From assembly GCF_001642935.1 (NCBI RefSeq), contig NZ_CP016761.1, positions 2,356,001-2,420,000 of the forward strand: a stretch of 64,000 nucleotides of DNA, written 5' to 3'. This document shows, in pieces, positions 5,233-39,758 of this stretch. This DNA is from Fictibacillus arsenicus (GTDB lineage Bacteria > Bacillota > Bacilli > Bacillales > Fictibacillaceae). The position numbers were made by a program, and so were the translations under genes. Under the pieces are notes generated by a model. That model was not told the DNA's origin. It did no database searches and saw only the letters and a list, made by a program, of their open reading frames with translations. How positions within the stretch are numbered: position 1 is the stretch's first letter; the number at the start of each line of letters is the position of its first letter.

Positions 5233-5340
5233 CGTATTTGCCATGTGTGATAGATAAGAAAAGTTTTGTTTTTGAAAGTATAACTATCGCGGAGTAACCG
5301 TAATCGTTACATAGCGTATCAATCTTGTCGAAAGTTCTAT

Positions 5341-5430
5341 ATATTAAAATTAACGTGCGATTTTTAGATTTAACGTGCGATTAATCAAAATAACGTGGGA
5401 TTTTTGTATTTAATGTGCGATTCTTCCGGA
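5341..5430. repeat. Tandem array 1: four copies of a 20-bp unit (TAACGTGCGA core)
   Basis: The core TAACGTGCGA occurs at 5351 and 5371, TAACGTGGGA at 5391 and TAATGTGCGA at 5411, an exact 20-bp spacing, with AT-rich sequence between. The unit read on the minus strand (TCGCACGTTAATTTTAATAT) matches 18 of 20 bases of a unit in array 2 near 37.8 kb. It lies about 170 bp upstream of dacF in the 5179-5732 gap. Function unknown. Confidence 0.85.
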
Positions 5431-5535: not shown

Positions 5536-5676
5536 AAAAAAGCTATTTCTTAAAGAATGTTGCTTTTGATTCGTTTTTGCGAAGGACCTTCATTGACAAG
5601 TTGATTGGAGTGCAAGGTGCGAGACTCCCGCGGAAAGCGAGCATCCTGGAGCGGAAATCAACCACTTCCAAAGAAA
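5536..5676 (+). repeat. MITE-like repeat element, copy 1 (short form)
   Basis: Contains the two conserved blocks of the family: AGTTGATTGGAGTGCAAGG...GAGACTCC and CGGAAAGCGAGCATCCTGGA followed by GCGGAAATCAACC. The middle module seen in other copies is missing. The left arm AAAGAATGTTGCTTTT is also shared. It fills the gap between dacF and pdp together with array 1; I see no gene here. Confidence 0.8.
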
Positions 5677-21062: not shown

Positions 21063-21285
21063 AACAATAAAGGTTTATCTCTAATAATTTGTTGCTTTAG
21101 AGTTTTTTATTTCATTCTCTTCATTGACAAGTTGATTGGAGAGCACGGTGCGAGACTCCTACGGGATCAGTGGGACAGGTGAGACTCCTAATGGTGCAAC
21201 GCACCAAGGAGGCTCACCGCCCACCCCGTGGAAAGCGAGTACCTGGAGCGGAAATCAACCACTTACAAGAACTACAATGTTTGAC
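21062..21285 (+). repeat. MITE-like repeat element, copy 2
   Basis: Standard form: left arm with TTTGTTGCTTTAGAG, then AGTTGATTGGAGAGCACGG, a central hairpin around GGACAGGTGAGACTCC and GGAGGCTCACCGCC, then GCGGAAATCAACCACTT. Occupies the gap between mvaB and the HesB-like gene; no gene is visible in it. Confidence 0.85.
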
Positions 21286-29976: not shown

Positions 29977-31233
29977 CTATGCCTTATGTCCGCCTAAGAG
30001 ACGGCTTCTGTATAGAGCAGTCCCTCCTTTTGTATAAGAAACAGCCCGCAAGAGAGAATTTGAACCATATTTTTGTCTGATCTCGTCCATGACATAGCCG
30101 ATTTGTCTTTTTTTCGGATGATCTAAAGAAAAGAGAGTGAGCTGTGTTTCCGTATCCTCACACACGTTTGACAAAGCAATCGATATTTTGCGTACAGTCT
30201 GCCCCTGATAAAAGGTGCGAAACAATTCCAGACAAACTTGATAAAGCTCCATCGTAATATTAGACGGCTGCTCGATCGTCTTAGAGCGATAAAAGCCTCC
30301 GCCTCCTTCATCTTTGCTGTACCCTACTCCAAAACTTATCGTCCTCCCTGCTTTTCCTGCTCTTCTTGCACGTCTTGCCACCTCTTCACACATCTCTAAA
30401 ATGACATGTTTGATCTCGGTAATATCTGTATAGTCTCTAAGCAAAATCTGGCTTTTCCCATAACTGATCTGTCCCTGCATGATGGGAGCACCGATTTCGG
30501 ATAAATCGATCCCCCATGCATGATAGTAAAGCTGATTGCCCATGATGCCGAATTTTTTCTCTAAAAGTTCGAGCGGATAATGCGCCAGGTCACCCACTGT
30601 CACAATCCCCATCCTGTTTAAGGTCCGCTCCACTCTTGACCCGATTCCCCACATTTTGCTTAAAGGAGATAGAGGCCAGAGTTTCGTTTCAACATCTTCA
30701 TACCCCCACTCGGCAACACCTTTTTTCTTCGCTTCAAGATCTAAGCAAAGCTTTGACATCAGCATGTTCGGTCCAATTCCGATCGCACACGGCAATCCAA
30801 ATTCCCTCCAGATATCCCGGCGGATTTTTTCAGCTAATTCCTGAGGACTTCCCCATAACTTTTCCGTTCCGTCTGCTTGAAGAAAACTTTCATCCACACT
30901 GTATGTGTGAATGGATTCAGGCGGGACATAACGGTGCAGCAGCTTTGTAATTTCCATTGACCTCTCGAGAAAAAAGGACATTTGGGCGTTCACTACAATG
31001 ATGTCTTTATTTTTAGGAATTTCAAACAAGCGGTTTCCAGTGCGGATGCCGAAATCTGCTTTCAATTGCGGAGAGGCAGCAAGAACGACACTCCCCTGCC
31101 GTTCTGTATCTCCCACCACTGCTAAATAACATGTGAGCGGGTTTAACCCTAAGCGAACAGCAGCACAGCTGGCGTAAAAGCTTTTCATATCCATACACAA
31201 AATGGTACGCTCAGGCATATCTTCATAGTTCAT
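29977..31233 (-). CDS. Y-family DNA polymerase, UvrX/YqjW (PolY2) type
   Basis: 418-residue translesion polymerase. Catalytic motifs CMDMKSFYASC (first Asp) and TYSVDESFL (second Asp-Glu) are intact, and a helix-hairpin-helix segment GIGSRVERTLNRMG follows in the thumb, with a little-finger domain to the end. It differs from the second Y-family enzyme (dinB at 38.6 kb) in lacking a short beta-clamp-type LDLFS tail, having LTLFS within the C-terminal part. Two LexA boxes upstream and yolD downstream indicate an SOS operon like B. subtilis yqjW-yqjX. Confidence 0.93.
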   Translation of the reverse strand: MNYEDMPERTILCMDMKSFYASCAAVRLGLNPLTCYLAVVGDTERQGSVVLAASPQLKADFGIRTGNRLFEIPKNKDIIVVNAQMSFFLERSMEITKLLHRYVPPESIHTYSVDESFLQADGTEKLWGSPQELAEKIRRDIWREFGLPCAIGIGPNMLMSKLCLDLEAKKKGVAEWGYEDVETKLWPLSPLSKMWGIGSRVERTLNRMGIVTVGDLAHYPLELLEKKFGIMGNQLYYHAWGIDLSEIGAPIMQGQISYGKSQILLRDYTDITEIKHVILEMCEEVARRARRAGKAGRTISFGVGYSKDEGGGGFYRSKTIEQPSNITMELYQVCLELFRTFYQGQTVRKISIALSNVCEDTETQLTLFSLDHPKKRQIGYVMDEIRQKYGSNSLLRAVSYTKGGTALYRSRLLGGHKA

Positions 31234-31671: not shown

Positions 31672-31802
31672 CCTTAATCAACGAGTTTTGGATGCCAATC
31701 CAAAAATTTCGGGCTTCAATCCACAAGTTTTAGACCTCAATCCAAAAATTTCGGGTCTCAATCCACGAGTTTTGGTTTTGAATCCACAAATCTTAGTTTT
31801 AG
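31672..31802. repeat. Tandem array 3: about six copies of a 21-bp unit (AATCCACGAGTTTTGG type)
   Basis: Units begin CAATCC at 21-bp steps and alternate between AATCCAAAAATTTCGGG and AATCCACGAGTTTTGG forms. It lies between the convergent yqzH-like and SDR genes. Because 21 is a multiple of three, the array yields an open frame of heptapeptides (LNPKISG, LNPRVLV) without a usable ribosome site. The unit is distantly like arrays 1 and 2. Confidence 0.85.
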
Positions 31803-33623: not shown

Positions 33624-33714
33624 GATTTCCTCCAAATAATTACTTGTTGACATACATATAGAAATCATAGCATAATGTTTTTTAAAATATAAAAGATTTG
33701 GATAATATAATTTG

Positions 33715-33940
33715 CGTTGAAAGGGATCACTAAGTATTCTCCCCCGATCAGAGAGTGGAATCCGAAGGCTGCAAGATTTCATCGGAAAAGGAAATGCTGA
33801 ACCTGCCCTTAGAGCATCTGGAGAAATCCAGCGCAGTTCTGCGATACAGGCGTTTCGAGCGGGCAAGAACTTTTGCCAATAAAGGTGGTACCACGGATTA
33901 CTCCCATCCGTCCTTTAAACAGGACATGGGAGTTTTTTTA
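33715..33940 (+). ncRNA. T-box leader, proline-type, controlling proI
   Basis: Stem I begins with AGAGAGTGGA; the specifier loop shows GAA-CCT-G with CCU (Pro) at 33802-33804. The T-box sequence AGGTGGTACCACGG lies at 33883-33896 and is followed by the terminator hairpin ACTCCCATCCGTCC...GGACATGGGAGT and a T run (33900-33939). The downstream gene is pyrroline-5-carboxylate reductase, so uncharged tRNA-Pro would switch on proline synthesis. Confidence 0.95.
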
Positions 33941-33968: not shown

Positions 33969-34787
33969 GTGAAAAAAGAAAAAATCACATTTATTGGTGC
34001 AGGAGCTATGGCGGAAGCGATCATGGAAGGGGTTATTAAAACAAATAAATGGCAAGCAAATCTTATCACGATTAAAAACCGCAGCAATTCTGGAAGGCTT
34101 AAAGAGCTTCAGACAAAGTACGGTGTAATCCCTGCTCCAACTATAAAGAAAGCAGTATCAGATGCTGAAATTATCATTTTAGCTGTTAAGCCAAAGGATG
34201 CTTCGCAAGCTGTCAAAAGTCTTGAACCTTTTATACAGAAAGAGCAGCTCATTATTTCTGTTATGGCAGGAATATCAACAGGAACAATTACAGAATGGAC
34301 GAATAATGAAAATCCTGTACTTCGGGCAATGCCTAATACATCAGCATCAATCGGATATTCTGCAACCGCTCTTTCCAAAGGTATATCTGCTTCAGATGTT
34401 CATGTACAAAAAGCAGTTGAGCTTTTTGAAACGATCGGAACCGTAACACTTGTGCCAGAGGATAAGCTTCATATCGTTACAGGGCTCTCTGGCAGCGGTC
34501 CTGCTTATATTTATTATATTGCAGAAGCGATGCAAAAAGCAGCTGAAGAATTAAGTCTGTCCCATGAAGAGGCTAAAACATTAATTTCTCAAACTCTCCT
34601 CGGCGCCTCTCTTATGTTAAAGAACACATCAGAATCTCCAATAGAACTCCGAAAAAAAGTAACAAGTCCTGGCGGAACAACTGAAGCGGGTATAGGAAAG
34701 CTGGATCAATACCAAGTACATGATGCTTTCATAGCTTGTATTAAGAAAGCAGTAAGACGATCTGAAGAATTAGGTAATATTAAATAA
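33969..34787 (+). CDS. proI: Pyrroline-5-carboxylate reductase (GTG start)
   Basis: Last step of proline synthesis: reduces pyrroline-5-carboxylate with NAD(P)H. 272 residues, with the Rossmann loop FIGAGAMAEAI at 7-17, the MPNTSA segment, and the C-terminal substrate site LSGSGPAY and TSPGGTTEAGI. The GTG 33969 has GGGAGG 7 nt upstream and lies just after the T-box terminator; in-frame codons further up fall inside the leader. The gene occupies the place of B. subtilis proI (yqjO). Confidence 0.95.
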   Translation: MKKEKITFIGAGAMAEAIMEGVIKTNKWQANLITIKNRSNSGRLKELQTKYGVIPAPTIKKAVSDAEIIILAVKPKDASQAVKSLEPFIQKEQLIISVMAGISTGTITEWTNNENPVLRAMPNTSASIGYSATALSKGISASDVHVQKAVELFETIGTVTLVPEDKLHIVTGLSGSGPAYIYYIAEAMQKAAEELSLSHEEAKTLISQTLLGASLMLKNTSESPIELRKKVTSPGGTTEAGIGKLDQYQVHDAFIACIKKAVRRSEELGNIK

Positions 34788-36367: not shown

Positions 36368-37393
36368 ATGTTTATTATTCAACCGTTATTATTTGAACCA
36401 TATTCGATCCGGGGTGTTACTTTAAAAAATCGTATCGTTATGTCACCTATGTGTATGTATTCATGCTACGAACAAGATGGAATGGTAACACCCTGGCATA
36501 TGACTCATTACACGTCTAGAGCAGTTGGACAGACCGGTCTAATCATGACTGAAGCAGCAGCGGTAAGTCCTAAAGGGAGAATCAGTCCGGAAGACCTCGG
36601 TATCTGGGATGACAGTCATATTGAAGGGCTGTCTGGTCTTGTTAAGTCCATTCACGAAAATGGCTCTAAAGCTGCCATTCAAATTGCGCATGCTGGCCGT
36701 AAAGCAATGATTGACGGACCGATTATCGCCCCTTCAGCTATTTCGTTTTCGGATAAGATGAAAACTCCGGAAGAAATGACTTTGGAGCAAATCGAAGAAA
36801 CTGTAAATCAATTTAGAGCTGCAGCAAAAAGAGCTAAGACTGCAGGATTTGATGTCATAGAGATCCACGGAGCTCACGGATATTTGATTAACGAATTCCT
36901 GTCTCCGCTATCTAATAGAAGAACAGATTCTTATGGCGGGAATCAGCAAAAAAGATACCGTTTCCTGCAGGAAATCATTGCTGCGATAAGACTTGAATGG
37001 AACGGACCGCTATTTGTAAGGATTTCAGCGAATGATTATCATCCTGAAGGAAACTCCCCAGAAGATTATGTAACCTATGCTTCATGGATGAAAGAGGATG
37101 GAATCGATTTGATCGACTGCAGCTCCGGCGCAGTTGTTCCAGCAAAGATTAATGTATACCCAGGCTATCAAGTACCTTTTGCAGAAAAGATCAGGAACTC
37201 TGCAGATATCGCTACAGCTGCTGTTGGATTAATTACAACAGGACGCCAAGCAGAAGAGATTCTGCAGAACCAGAGAGCAGACTTAATCTTTATCGGCCGT
37301 GAGTTTTTAAGAGATCCTTATTGGCCTCGATCTGCAGCCGAAGATCTAGGAATCAACATCCAGAGCCCTAAACAGTATGAGCGCGGCTGGTAA
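36368..37393 (+). CDS. namA: NADPH dehydrogenase, old yellow enzyme family (NamA/YqjM)
   Basis: FMN-dependent ene-reductase, about 340 residues, TIM barrel. Signatures: [14 protein letters not shown] with the Cys that tunes FMN, the substrate pair His-x-x-His in QIAHAGRKA and [16 protein letters not shown], and [13 protein letters not shown]. The ATG used touches its GGAG; ATT codons at 36374 or 36377 have proper spacing, and the latter gives a protein aligning from residue 1 with YqjM. The exact start is therefore open. Confidence 0.93.
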
Positions 37394-37464: not shown

Positions 37465-37745
37465 GTTATTTTCTAAAAGATTGTTGCTTTTGGTGGGGTT
37501 TTTGTAATTTGCCTCCATTGGCAGGTTGATTGGAGTGTAAGGTGCGAGACTCCTGCGGGATTAGCGTGCCATCTACTTGACTAATCTTCTCGAAAGGCAT
37601 GCGACGAGGAAGCTAGCTACGGTGAGATTTTCATGTAGACGCAGGAGCAGCGTTTCATATATCTTTCGCTGTGGCTCACCGCACGTCCCGCGGAAAGCGA
37701 GCATCCTGAAACGGAGATCAACTACCTTCAAAAACAACGAAGTTT
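37464..37745 (+). repeat. MITE-like repeat element, copy 4 (long form)
   Basis: Left arm TTTTCTAAAAGATTGTTGCT, core AGGTTGATTGGAGTGTAAGG and GAGACTCCTGCGGGA, right core CGGAAAGCGAGCATCCTGAA. The middle carries a module with GCGACGAGGAA and TGTAGACGCAGGAGCAG that recurs in copy 5. No gene is visible. Confidence 0.85.
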
Positions 37746-37784
37746 ATGAAAACAGATTTTGTGTAAGATGCCCTAAATTTCATT

Positions 37785-37875
37785 AATCCCACGGTTATTG
37801 CAAATAATCCCACGTTAATTTTAATAATCCCACGGGAAATAAACATAATCCCTCTGGAAAATCCTAAAAAACCAC
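37785..37875. repeat. Tandem array 2: four units of 20-21 bp (TAATCCCACG core)
   Basis: TAATCCCACG at 37785, 37806 and 37826 and a decayed TAATCCCTCT at 37847, with a trailing CCACGAG near 37872. The unit TCCCACGTTAATTTTAATAA differs at only two bases from a unit of array 1 read on the other strand. Lies between the convergent namA and PAP2 genes, beside element copy 4. Confidence 0.85.
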
Positions 37876-37919
37876 GAGTCGACAAAGTTCGGTATGTAGC
37901 AGCATCGAGCTCTTCAATT

Positions 37920-38564
37920 TCAGCTGCTCCATCTCATCTTTAACCATTTATAGAGCAAAACACATACAAGCAGCCACGTCCCGCCTGCAAGAAAACCTCC
38001 AAACACATCGGTTGGATAGTGGACACCTAAATATACACGGCTGAATCCCACCATAAAAATAAATAAGCTCGTAATGATATAAATTATTTTTTTATAGGGT
38101 TGCAGAAATGAATAATTTTGAACGAGTAAGTATGATAGCAATCCAAAAAAAGCGAGGGAGATCATCGCATGGCCGCTTGGGAAGCTGTAGCCTGTTATTT
38201 CGATCACACGGTCAAATTCGGGTCTGATCCTCTCAAACGATATCTTTAACCAATGGTTTCCGTATCTTACCCCAATTAAACATATCCCCAACACTAGTGG
38301 CTCTCTCCATTTTCTTTCAGCCAATAGCCAAATCACTGAAAAGAAAATCAAGACTCCATATTGGTACGGCCGGGAAGCTGCATCAGTAATAAATATAAAG
38401 AATGAATTTAATCGAGATTGATGCAAGTCTGATACATTCTTCATCGACCACACATCCACAGCTTCTATAAAGGGCTTGTGATACAGATAGGCGAACATCA
38501 TAAATAAAACCATAAAAACTGTAATTAAAATGAATGTTCTTTTCACGCTGTTATTTAGGGTCAT
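37920..38564 (-). CDS. PAP2-family membrane phosphatase
   Basis: A 214-residue membrane protein with about six hydrophobic segments and a complete phosphatidic-acid-phosphatase signature: KISFERIRP (KX6RP), PSGHAM, and SRVYLGVHYPTD (SRX5HX3D). It probably dephosphorylates lipid phosphates such as undecaprenyl-PP or phosphatidylglycerol phosphate. AGGAG precedes the ATG. It lies 15 nt downstream of dinB in the same direction, so it may be co-transcribed. Substrate not determined. Confidence 0.9.
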   Translation of the reverse strand: MTLNNSVKRTFILITVFMVLFMMFAYLYHKPFIEAVDVWSMKNVSDLHQSRLNSFFIFITDAASRPYQYGVLIFFSVIWLLAERKWREPLVLGICLIGVRYGNHWLKISFERIRPEFDRVIEITGYSFPSGHAMISLAFFGLLSYLLVQNYSFLQPYKKIIYIITSLFIFMVGFSRVYLGVHYPTDVFGGFLAGGTWLLVCVLLYKWLKMRWSS

Positions 38565-38579
38565 TAAAATTTCCAGCTC

Positions 38580-39758
38580 CTATTTATTTTTTCCCCTCTT
38601 GATTATTCCTTCACCATGTTTTCTTTCGATAGATGAAAGCACGTCATGCAATAAAGCTTCTTTTTCATTTTTTTCAACAGAGAATAGATCGAGCTGATAA
38701 GTAGCATTCTCTCTTTCCACAACCTCTGTTGCGGTTATTCCTAATAGTCTTACCGGTTCTCTGTTCCAGTGCTGCTTAAACAAATGCAAGGCTGTTTTTG
38801 AAATTTCATGTTGATCTTGAGTTGCATTTAGAAGCATCTTGCTGCGTGTAATTGTTTTCCTGTCGCTGTATCTAATAGTGATGGCAATAGTTAATGCCAC
38901 ATATCCTTTTGTCTTTAGACGTGTCATTACTTTTTCAGCGAGTCTTTTAAAAACCGGTTCTGCTTCACCTGTGCTTATAATATCCTCACTTAATGTTGTA
39001 GAACTTCCGATTGAACGATAATCACTTGCAGAGCTTGGATCGACGGGCCGCGAATCAATGCCGTTGGCTCTTTCCTTCATTTTTAAACCATTGATGCCAA
39101 AACGCTGTTTAAGTTCATAATCTGCCGCTTCCGCTAAGTCTTTAACAGTAATAATTCCGTACTTATTTAGTTTTTCTTCTGTTTTTTTTCCGATGCCATG
39201 CAGATCTCCTACTTTTAAAGGCCATAGATTTTGAGCAAGATCTCTTTTTCTTAGAACGGTGATGCCTAGCGGCTTTTTCATATCGGAAGCCATCTTAGCA
39301 AGAAATTTATTAGGTCCGATACCAATCGAGCAAGGAAGATTCAACTCATTCAAAAGCCTGTTCTGAATTTCTTCAGCTGTCTCCAAAGGCTGTTTGCATT
39401 CAGTCACATCCATATAGCCTTCATCAATTGAAACAGGTTCAACCCATTCTGTATATTCTTGCAGAAGCTGGAACATTCTCGAGGAATAACTTTTATAAGT
39501 TTCAAAGTCAGGCGGAACAACAATCAAGTTTGGACATAGCTTTCTAGCCTGCCAAAGCGGCATCGTCGTCTTGACTCCTTTTTCTCTTGCTTCATAGCTG
39601 CAGGTTACGATAATCCCTTTACGTTCCTCCACATTACCTGCCACAGCAAGCGGTTTTCCACGCAGATCTGGATTTTCTGCTATTTCAACGGATGCATAGA
39701 AGCTGTTCATGTCAACATGAAAAATGATTCTTCTTTTTGGCGTGGGGGATTGATACAA
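38580..39758 (-). CDS. dinB: DNA polymerase IV (DinB/PolY1), TTG start
   Basis: Y-family translesion polymerase of 392 residues. Motifs FHVDMNSFYASVE and SIDEGYMDVT give the three acidic active-site residues; HhH LHGIGKKTEEKLNKYG follows, and the C-terminus bears a clamp-binding peptide YQLDLFS. The TTG at 39758 has AAAGGAG 8 nt upstream. The only space for its promoter is the repeat element lying between it and the MarR gene. B. subtilis equivalent is yqjH. Confidence 0.94.
   Translation of the reverse strand: MYQSPTPKRRIIFHVDMNSFYASVEIAENPDLRGKPLAVAGNVEERKGIIVTCSYEAREKGVKTTMPLWQARKLCPNLIVVPPDFETYKSYSSRMFQLLQEYTEWVEPVSIDEGYMDVTECKQPLETAEEIQNRLLNELNLPCSIGIGPNKFLAKMASDMKKPLGITVLRKRDLAQNLWPLKVGDLHGIGKKTEEKLNKYGIITVKDLAEAADYELKQRFGINGLKMKERANGIDSRPVDPSSASDYRSIGSSTTLSEDIISTGEAEPVFKRLAEKVMTRLKTKGYVALTIAITIRYSDRKTITRSKMLLNATQDQHEISKTALHLFKQHWNREPVRLLGITATEVVERENATYQLDLFSVEKNEKEALLHDVLSSIERKHGEGIIKRGKNK

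Follow-up and report, generated by a model that had tools for sequence, protein, structure and literature searches.

The window analysed here, the whole stretch of 64,000 nucleotides at positions 2,356,001-2,420,000 of the single 4,055,461-bp contig of the soil bacterium Fictibacillus arsenicus, contains three arrays of short direct repeats, one of which lies between two convergent genes. The features of this locus and the two other arrays are as follows, spacings being counted from the preceding unit.

36368..37393, plus strand: FMN oxidoreductase gene, left convergent neighbour
37785..37793, plus strand: unit 1, core AATCCCACG, found by sequence and pattern match
37806..37814, plus strand: unit 2, core AATCCCACG, spacing 21
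37826..37834, plus strand: unit 3, core AATCCCACG, spacing 20
37847..37855, plus strand: unit 4, degenerate core AATCCCTCT, spacing 21
37868..37884, plus strand: terminal unit AAAACCACGAGTCGACA (a ACCACGAGTCGACA unit), in phase, spacing 21
37920..38564, minus strand: PAP2 phosphatase gene, right convergent neighbour
5325..5422, minus strand: array 1, four cores AATC(G/C)CAC(G/A), all 20 bp apart, followed by TTTCGACAA
31672..31815, plus strand: third array, AATCCA-type units with a 21 bp period, ending in ..AATCGACA

The initial annotation correctly gave the period of the array at 37785 as 20-21 bp, the identity between one of its units and a unit of array 1 as 18 of 20 bases, and the orientation of the flanking genes, both of which face the array; the start that it assigned (37785) stands, and the end (37875) has to be moved, since the array reaches about 37884. 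In the relatives G014 and G006, the unit aligned with the degenerate unit 4 reads AATCCCACG, and the terminal unit carries an end motif that is common to many arrays. All three arrays of the window are also picked up by TRF, which places the third, absent from the initial annotation, at 31672-31800, and a weak 129-bp ORF (37718-37846) called over the array by our own gene finder was taken as spurious. The 16-base sequence CACGTTAATTTTAATA matches exactly at 37811 (plus strand) and 5342 (minus strand); with up to two mismatches, it has three matches in the window against 0.13 expected, a number reached in none of 100 shuffles.

The repeats are dispersed through the whole genome. Pairs of the form AATCCCACG-N12-AATCCCACG with up to two mismatches have 34 genome matches and none in the reversed control, so that the absence of further arrays, which the initial annotation had named as evidence against a dispersed and phased family, is not what the genome displays; such a family, beyond chance, is upheld in this genome and in part of the genus Fictibacillus. 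Pairs of AATCNCACG with up to three mismatches give 81 matches (6 in the reversed control), and the AATCCA, ATCACATAA and TTTGAGCG pairs give 58, 43 and 48, respectively, with none in the reversed controls, while the end motif AACCACGAGTCGACA has 31 matches (6 in the control). A catalogue compiled by hand comprises at least 115 arrays of six families; it leaves out chance- or coding-looking matches of AACCACGAGTCGACA and AATCNCACG, relies on manual assignment of the others, and undercounts the ATCACATAA and TTTGAGCG families, which were taken from among the matches listed. Many arrays end in TCGACA, and the order of units recurs at different loci, as judged by eye. The family labels cluster along the chromosome through the B type only (p 0.02 with B, 0.35 without). 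Arrays of AATCTCACG are clustered at 3,285-3,365 kb (L154-L157), with eight in about 70 kb, and a similar cluster is present in G003 at 2,705-2,786 kb; inspection by eye of the genes flanking the AATCTCACG arrays revealed no shared regulator.

One feature was out of reach of the initial annotation: unit families of unrelated sequence have a common period. When exact cores were collected without any spacing requirement, 112 of the 113 distances below 40 bp were 20 or 21 bp and the remaining one was 33 bp (two overlapping J patterns are both included in this count), and the longer distances fell at 40-42 and 61-63 bp, with one each at 57 and 83 bp. Because the loci of the own genome had partly been picked by a 21-bp pattern, arbitrarily placed stretches were also scanned at lags of 13-60 bp. 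In 23 stretches of other Fictibacillus species, ten arrays were detected, two with a period of 20 bp, seven of 21 bp and one of 22 bp; the last is an 11-bp repeat, and the nine at 20-21 bp come from nine separate stretches. In 29 stretches of other Bacillales, thirteen arrays were detected, with periods of 20 (two), 21 (four), 42, 43, 45 and 51 (one each) and 52 bp (three). The six at 20-21 bp derive from just 4 of the 29 stretches, a single stretch contributing three, and two of the six are at the lowest score counted. The scan of 18 stretches of other Bacillota, one of which was too short to scan, found no arrays in 41 kb of gaps, and the shuffles of the three scans yielded 0, 1 and 0 arrays. 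Altogether, 19 of the 23 intergenic arrays from arbitrary stretches have periods of 20-21, 42 or 52 bp (p 7e-12, with whole-turn bins chosen after the data had been seen). Extension of the lags to 130 bp at a higher threshold added nine single matches at 66-123 bp in the arbitrary stretches, with no helical preference, and scattered further matches in the own stretches, several of them in tRNA or rRNA. A lag scan of called genes gave 7 matches at 21 bp and 5 at 42 bp, besides other multiples of three.

Intergenic repeats of 20-21 bp are present in several genera of Bacillales, with widely differing unit sequences, such as GAATCGCTCATAAAAGTCTG, TTTTGACCGATAGAA and GATTGTAACTAT. One intergenic gap of G016 (L188:9037-9504) holds 23 perfect copies of the 20-mer GAATCGCTCATAAAAGTCTG. 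The 52-bp intergenic arrays, equivalent to five turns, occur in three other Bacillales (L224:966-1388, L228:9132-9563 and L231:9846-10178) and are unrelated in sequence.

The arrays favour convergent gaps and avoid divergent ones, where promoters lie. A lag scan of the window and 40 stretches of the own genome chosen around A-, B- and C-type arrays (about 860 kb) detected 49 arrays and none in shuffles; 47 of them are intergenic, counting the coding-looking array at 168137, and two lie inside called genes. The 47 intergenic arrays, with a median length of 81 bp, comprise 21 in convergent gaps (one coding-looking), 24 in tandem gaps and 2 in divergent gaps, to be compared with 60 convergent, 224 tandem and 108 divergent among all gaps of at least 100 bp (Fisher p 1.8e-7 for the convergent excess and 3.6e-5 for the divergent depletion). 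Genes were called by a simple codon-usage finder, so single gene assignments can be wrong. Pattern search for AATCNC-type arrays in the own genome gave 16 convergent, 17 tandem and 3 divergent locations, with 3 more in called genes, and other Fictibacillus loci, partly chosen for arrays, gave 18, 14 and 2, respectively.

An orientation bias with respect to transcription or replication had been put forward in the initial annotation as worth checking. The AATCNC-type arrays in tandem gaps display none with respect to transcription, 15 being sense and 16 antisense. Relative to replication, the terminus being placed between 2.18 and 2.30 Mb by gene direction together with GC skew, only slight tendencies are seen: 27 of 72 arrays of the AATC-type families are on the leading strand (p 0.044, uncorrected) and, among the matches listed, 20 of 26 of the TTTGAGCG family (p 0.009, uncorrected).

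A subset of the arrays is embedded in a more complex structure. Twelve aligned loci have in common much of one extended layout, in which a hairpin AGTTTCGG..CCGAAACT (hairpin 1, not clear in all twelve), a hairpin ATACC..GGTATT, the array, CCACGAGTCGACA, GACAAATTTCGC and ATACCC follow each other, the array inside consisting of either A- or C-type units; many other arrays lack the 5' part of this composite. A sigma-B-like GGGTAT noticed by eye in the subset was dropped as a candidate, since the -35 part does not recur. An element that acts in transcripts, as a terminator, decoy or processing site, would agree with the location of arrays at 3' ends and with a compensating change in hairpin 1 that is seen by eye at one composite locus. 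It is nevertheless highly improbable in our judgement: the arrays have no strand preference, RNA folding of the three window arrays on both strands gave no signal (z from -1.3 to +1.8), an Rfam search over the window and five array loci found no match except a distant T-box, and a spacing of 20-21 bp fits B-DNA.

Comparison of orthologous arrays indicates that the cores are constrained. In 24 pairwise alignments, some of which have one own array in common, identity amounts to 744 of 821 positions in cores, 876 of 1135 in spacers and 1377 of 1841 in flanks. Since loci had been chosen for containing cores, a stricter set was compiled by dropping the two best units of each array, and here, too, cores (191 of 215) are more conserved than spacers (457 of 572; p 0.003); this set holds 15 locus pairs, which yielded alignments of 13 distinct own arrays. 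The core is more conserved than the spacer in 13 of these 13, and position 5, the free base of the core, is the least conserved core base of the stricter set. Gap openings inside arrays number 10 per 644 bp and those outside 79 per 2895 bp (9 arrays), a deficit that is not significant (p 0.09). The majority of the loci compared had been chosen for carrying arrays.

These data bear on the notion that the arrays are neutral minisatellites, generated by replication slippage and kept because they are harmless in gaps. Some arrays are indeed perfect tandem repeats, as in the case of the 23 copies in G016, avoidance of promoters alone would deplete divergent gaps, and the single matches at 66-123 bp follow no helical preference. 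Slippage, however, predicts many unit lengths, whereas lengths of 20-21 bp dominate below 60 bp, and it accounts neither for cores that are more conserved than spacers nor for the same core at dozens of places, which makes it a distinctly unlikely source of the arrays.

The distribution of the unit families among relatives is patchy. Of the 53 stretches of named genomes that match an exact three-unit pattern, 22 belong to Fictibacillus (11), Planomicrobium/Planococcus (5), Pontibacillus (4), Sporosarcina (1) and Bacillus (1); the remaining 31, of which 3 were inspected, are from other groups outside the named Bacillales. The AATCNCACG pair occurs in 13 of 60 genomes (the own genome and 59 relatives), with 0 in the reversed control throughout and with at least one single match, in G042, that looks coding. 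For the TTTGAGCG family, searched with up to two mismatches, 13 of the 120 genomes from the order are positive, including four of Fictibacillus; in four genomes there is just one match, and the reversed controls total 5. The ATCACATAA family was found in 0 of 100 other Bacillota genomes, a sample without any Fictibacillus. A superstructure was observed at L051 and at G052:C18:64967-65532, where blocks of AATCCC(A/G)CG units recur, partly about every 104 bp.

At the 37785 locus itself, compared across 18 members of the genus, the AATCNCACG type is present in 4 (G000, G014, G006 and G009), an unrelated 21-bp array of ATCACATAAAAA occupies the site in 3 (G001, G011 and G016), a terminator alone lies between the genes in 8, and the remaining 3 (G010, G012 and G017) were ambiguous or gave no information.

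The core also varies by genus: among the matches listed, those of the TTTGAGCG family read TTTGAGCG in Fictibacillus, TTTAAGCG in G204 and G235, TTTGCGCG in G247 and TTGGAGCG in G048, and they are mostly homogeneous inside one genome. In one orthologous array, core base 5 has changed in concert between two species (L095 and L090). Both observations would be expected of operators of one or more sequence-specific regulators, phased for cooperativity, where protein specificity and cores change together between species. Against such operators stand the location of the arrays away from promoters, with divergent gaps accounting for 2 of 47 by the lag scan and 3 of 36 by pattern, and the coexistence of many core families in one genome, and we deem them an improbable explanation.

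Arrays keep their place between species at the orthologous loci compared. One apparent absence turned out to be a deletion in the relative, comparison of the relatives' loci found no clean empty site, and collections of viruses, plasmids and phages gave no array match beyond one coding-looking viral match. Non-autonomous mobile repeats of the BOX/MITE kind, copied as whole elements by a transposase in trans, with phased transposase sites as in Tn7-like ends, could explain the composite layout of the twelve loci, with their A- or C-type units, as well as the recurrent unit order and the frequent TCGACA ends. This possibility is nonetheless unlikely, in view of the fixed positions, the deletion and the lack of phage or plasmid matches in the collections searched, and one period across unrelated unit families would be left unexplained. 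Ends of Tn7-like transposons (TGTCGA at one end) were considered specifically and set aside, with no empty site in their support.

The arrays also have a common base composition pattern. Each array was folded at its own period and compared with permuted unit columns, which keeps period and composition; the test is not circular, as arrays had been picked by period and not by GC pattern. In 41 arrays, five of them from other genomes, the second harmonic (about 10.3 bp) is the most raised (Fisher 4e-16), the first is weakly raised (0.001), and the third and fourth are null. With one array per family label (n=14, including three B variants and the coding-looking array at 168137), the second harmonic gives a Fisher p of 6.7e-6 and harmonics 3-5 are null, single arrays often being not significant (harmonic 2 below 0.05 in 3 of the 14 labels); after two B duplicates and the coding-looking array are dropped, the 11 labels give 1.1e-5 for the second harmonic and 0.049 for the first. 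As controls, 8 percent of 965 other intergenic segments (median p 0.43) and 3 percent of 232 coding segments fall below 0.05. The signal extends to 22 arrays of other genomes (second harmonic 7e-7, with 6 of 22 below 0.05; harmonic 3, 0.999), a set in which some arrays belong to the same families, seven named loci have coordinates set by eye and the segment coordinates of L067 are wrong. Of three 52-bp arrays that come from different genera, two have their peak at 10.4 bp (p 0.031 and 0.029; the third, 0.31), each array having been tested for ten harmonics. The 42- and 43-bp arrays have no peak at 10.5 bp, and the GC-rich arrays of Pontibacillus and Sporosarcina display neither alternation nor clear predicted curvature.

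By prediction, the arrays qualify as curved DNA. Predicted curvature over 73 bp is 43.0 for 33 arrays and 15.9 for 1169 other intergenic segments, and a second parameter set gives 76.4 and 41.2, both being sets of dinucleotide parameters that were entered by hand; the array at 168137 is excluded from the curvature tests. Since repetition alone gives part of this excess, the arrays were compared with period-preserving permutations, relative to which predicted curvature is 2.05 times higher (35 arrays; p 1.7e-5 with one value per family, n=12), or 1.42 times higher with the second set (p 0.018); for the 22 arrays of other genomes, the Fisher p values with the two sets are 3e-6 and 8e-5. The idea in the initial annotation that the unit corresponds to two helical turns is thus supported by three features: the spacing, a GC/AT alternation whose period is half the unit length, and the predicted curvature.

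The known systems closest to the arrays include the REP and BIME elements. According to PMC3733652, REPs occur mainly between convergent and unidirectional (co-directional) genes; our arrays, likewise dispersed, short and intergenic, have 45 of 47 members in convergent or co-directional gaps. The two differ in structure, REP units being palindromes of 20-40 bp, whereas the arrays consist of direct repeats with a 20-21 bp spacing, and one genome has several unrelated cores. The arrays thus lack the REP hairpin unit, in agreement with the fold z-scores of the three window arrays, the only ones covered by RNA folding; some B- and D-type units hold the short dyad AATCTCACGAGATT. The BIME-2 elements of E. 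coli are gyrase sites and are cut by gyrase, as described in PMC6379681, which gives a gyrase motif with helically phased alternation of AT and GC, AT facing the protein. The pooled arrays resemble gyrase-preferred sites in alternating GC and AT at helical phase, which makes gyrase a candidate link. We know of no tandem core sequence at gyrase-preferred sites.

RemA is proposed in PMC8481266 to wrap poorly conserved repetitive DNA, with a footprint of at least six periodic 7-bp protections 3 bp apart; the RemA sites of that paper are located upstream of promoters. The own genome carries two RemA-family genes. Unlike RemA sites, the arrays avoid divergent gaps. In plectoneme-pinning DNA, curvature over about 70 bp pins plectoneme tips, and the predicted pinning sites lie upstream of promoters, as given in PMC6301789; the arrays are alike in length but unlike in sitting at gene ends. 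Pneumococcal BOX elements are built of tandem internal modules enclosed by end modules, as outlined in PMC3049150. A BOX-like composite of end modules and a variable tandem array is found here in the twelve aligned loci only. The boxB module is about 45 bp long and, unlike the present units, is not a helical-turn repeat. Two further candidates were rejected. CRISPR arrays have repeats of about 23 bp or more and longer unique spacers, whereas the arrays have a 9-bp core and a spacer of 11-12 bp. DnaA boxes have the sequence TTATCCACA; a DnaA-box cluster or titration site was dropped, since the AATCNCACG, ATCACATAA and TTTGAGCG cores, inspected by eye, do not match such a box. By the same inspection, TATCCACGAG, the terminal unit, and some units of AATCCACG are near a DnaA box.

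With moderate confidence, we regard the arrays as sites at gene ends that act at the level of DNA, through bending or wrapping in phase with the helix, and that are probably bound by protein. Because the unit is two helical turns (20-21 bp), every core would face the same side of the duplex; patches of GC and of AT tend to follow each other with a period of about 10.4 bp, and curvature or anisotropic bendability is predicted for roughly 80-100 bp of DNA. In the most likely case, a wrapping or array-binding protein would wrap the array, or the array would pin the tip of a supercoil, candidate binders being gyrase, RemA, LrpC or a core-specific protein. The array may then absorb or localise supercoiling at the ends of transcription units or where they converge. 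Such a supercoiling role has been proposed for the E. coli REP/BIME elements together with gyrase. A purely transcription-driven role fits poorly, since the gyrase signal at E. coli BIME-2 rises under a transcription block (PMC6379681).

Helical phase is common to the unrelated families, as are, on average, GC/AT alternation and a predicted bend. Phase, alternation and bend are what DNA-wrapping proteins read. The same spacing with different repeat sequences in relatives suggests that the geometry of bending or binding matters more than the letters. At the same time, cores that are common to loci and species point to a putative sequence reader and not to bending alone, and since they are common within a genome and change together between species, some arrays may also have a sequence-specific reader. 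As a more tentative extension, which we consider possible though rather doubtful, the arrays could represent a Bacillales-wide class of intergenic elements in which helical phase and curvature, not sequence, are conserved, and in which families turn over even at one site while the whole-turn length stays. In bacteria, such elements would play the part of nucleosome-positioning DNA at gene ends, with a wrapping protein or supercoiling itself as the reader. Among the listed matches of an open-access literature search, we found no description of such arrays in Bacillales. If the main interpretation is correct, the arrays would be natural markers of the position of supercoils or wrapping proteins on bacterial chromosomes, which is hard to read from sequence, and the presence of intergenic repeats of 20-21 bp in several Bacillales genera would be accounted for.

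Other features of the window were recorded along the way. A T-box leader (Rfam RF00230) lies at 33708-33918, upstream of a plus-strand gene that starts at 33969 according to our own gene finder. Two genes for Y-family DNA polymerases (29977-31233 and 38580-39758) are each beside or near an array, probably by chance. A second dispersed repeat, of the GTTGATTGGAGTG..GGAAATCAAC type, is found at 37525-37735 and 5600-5670, and also at 21131, 25718, 48119 and 63665; it adjoins both AATCNCACG arrays of the window, and with up to two mismatches it has six window matches against 0.01 expected.
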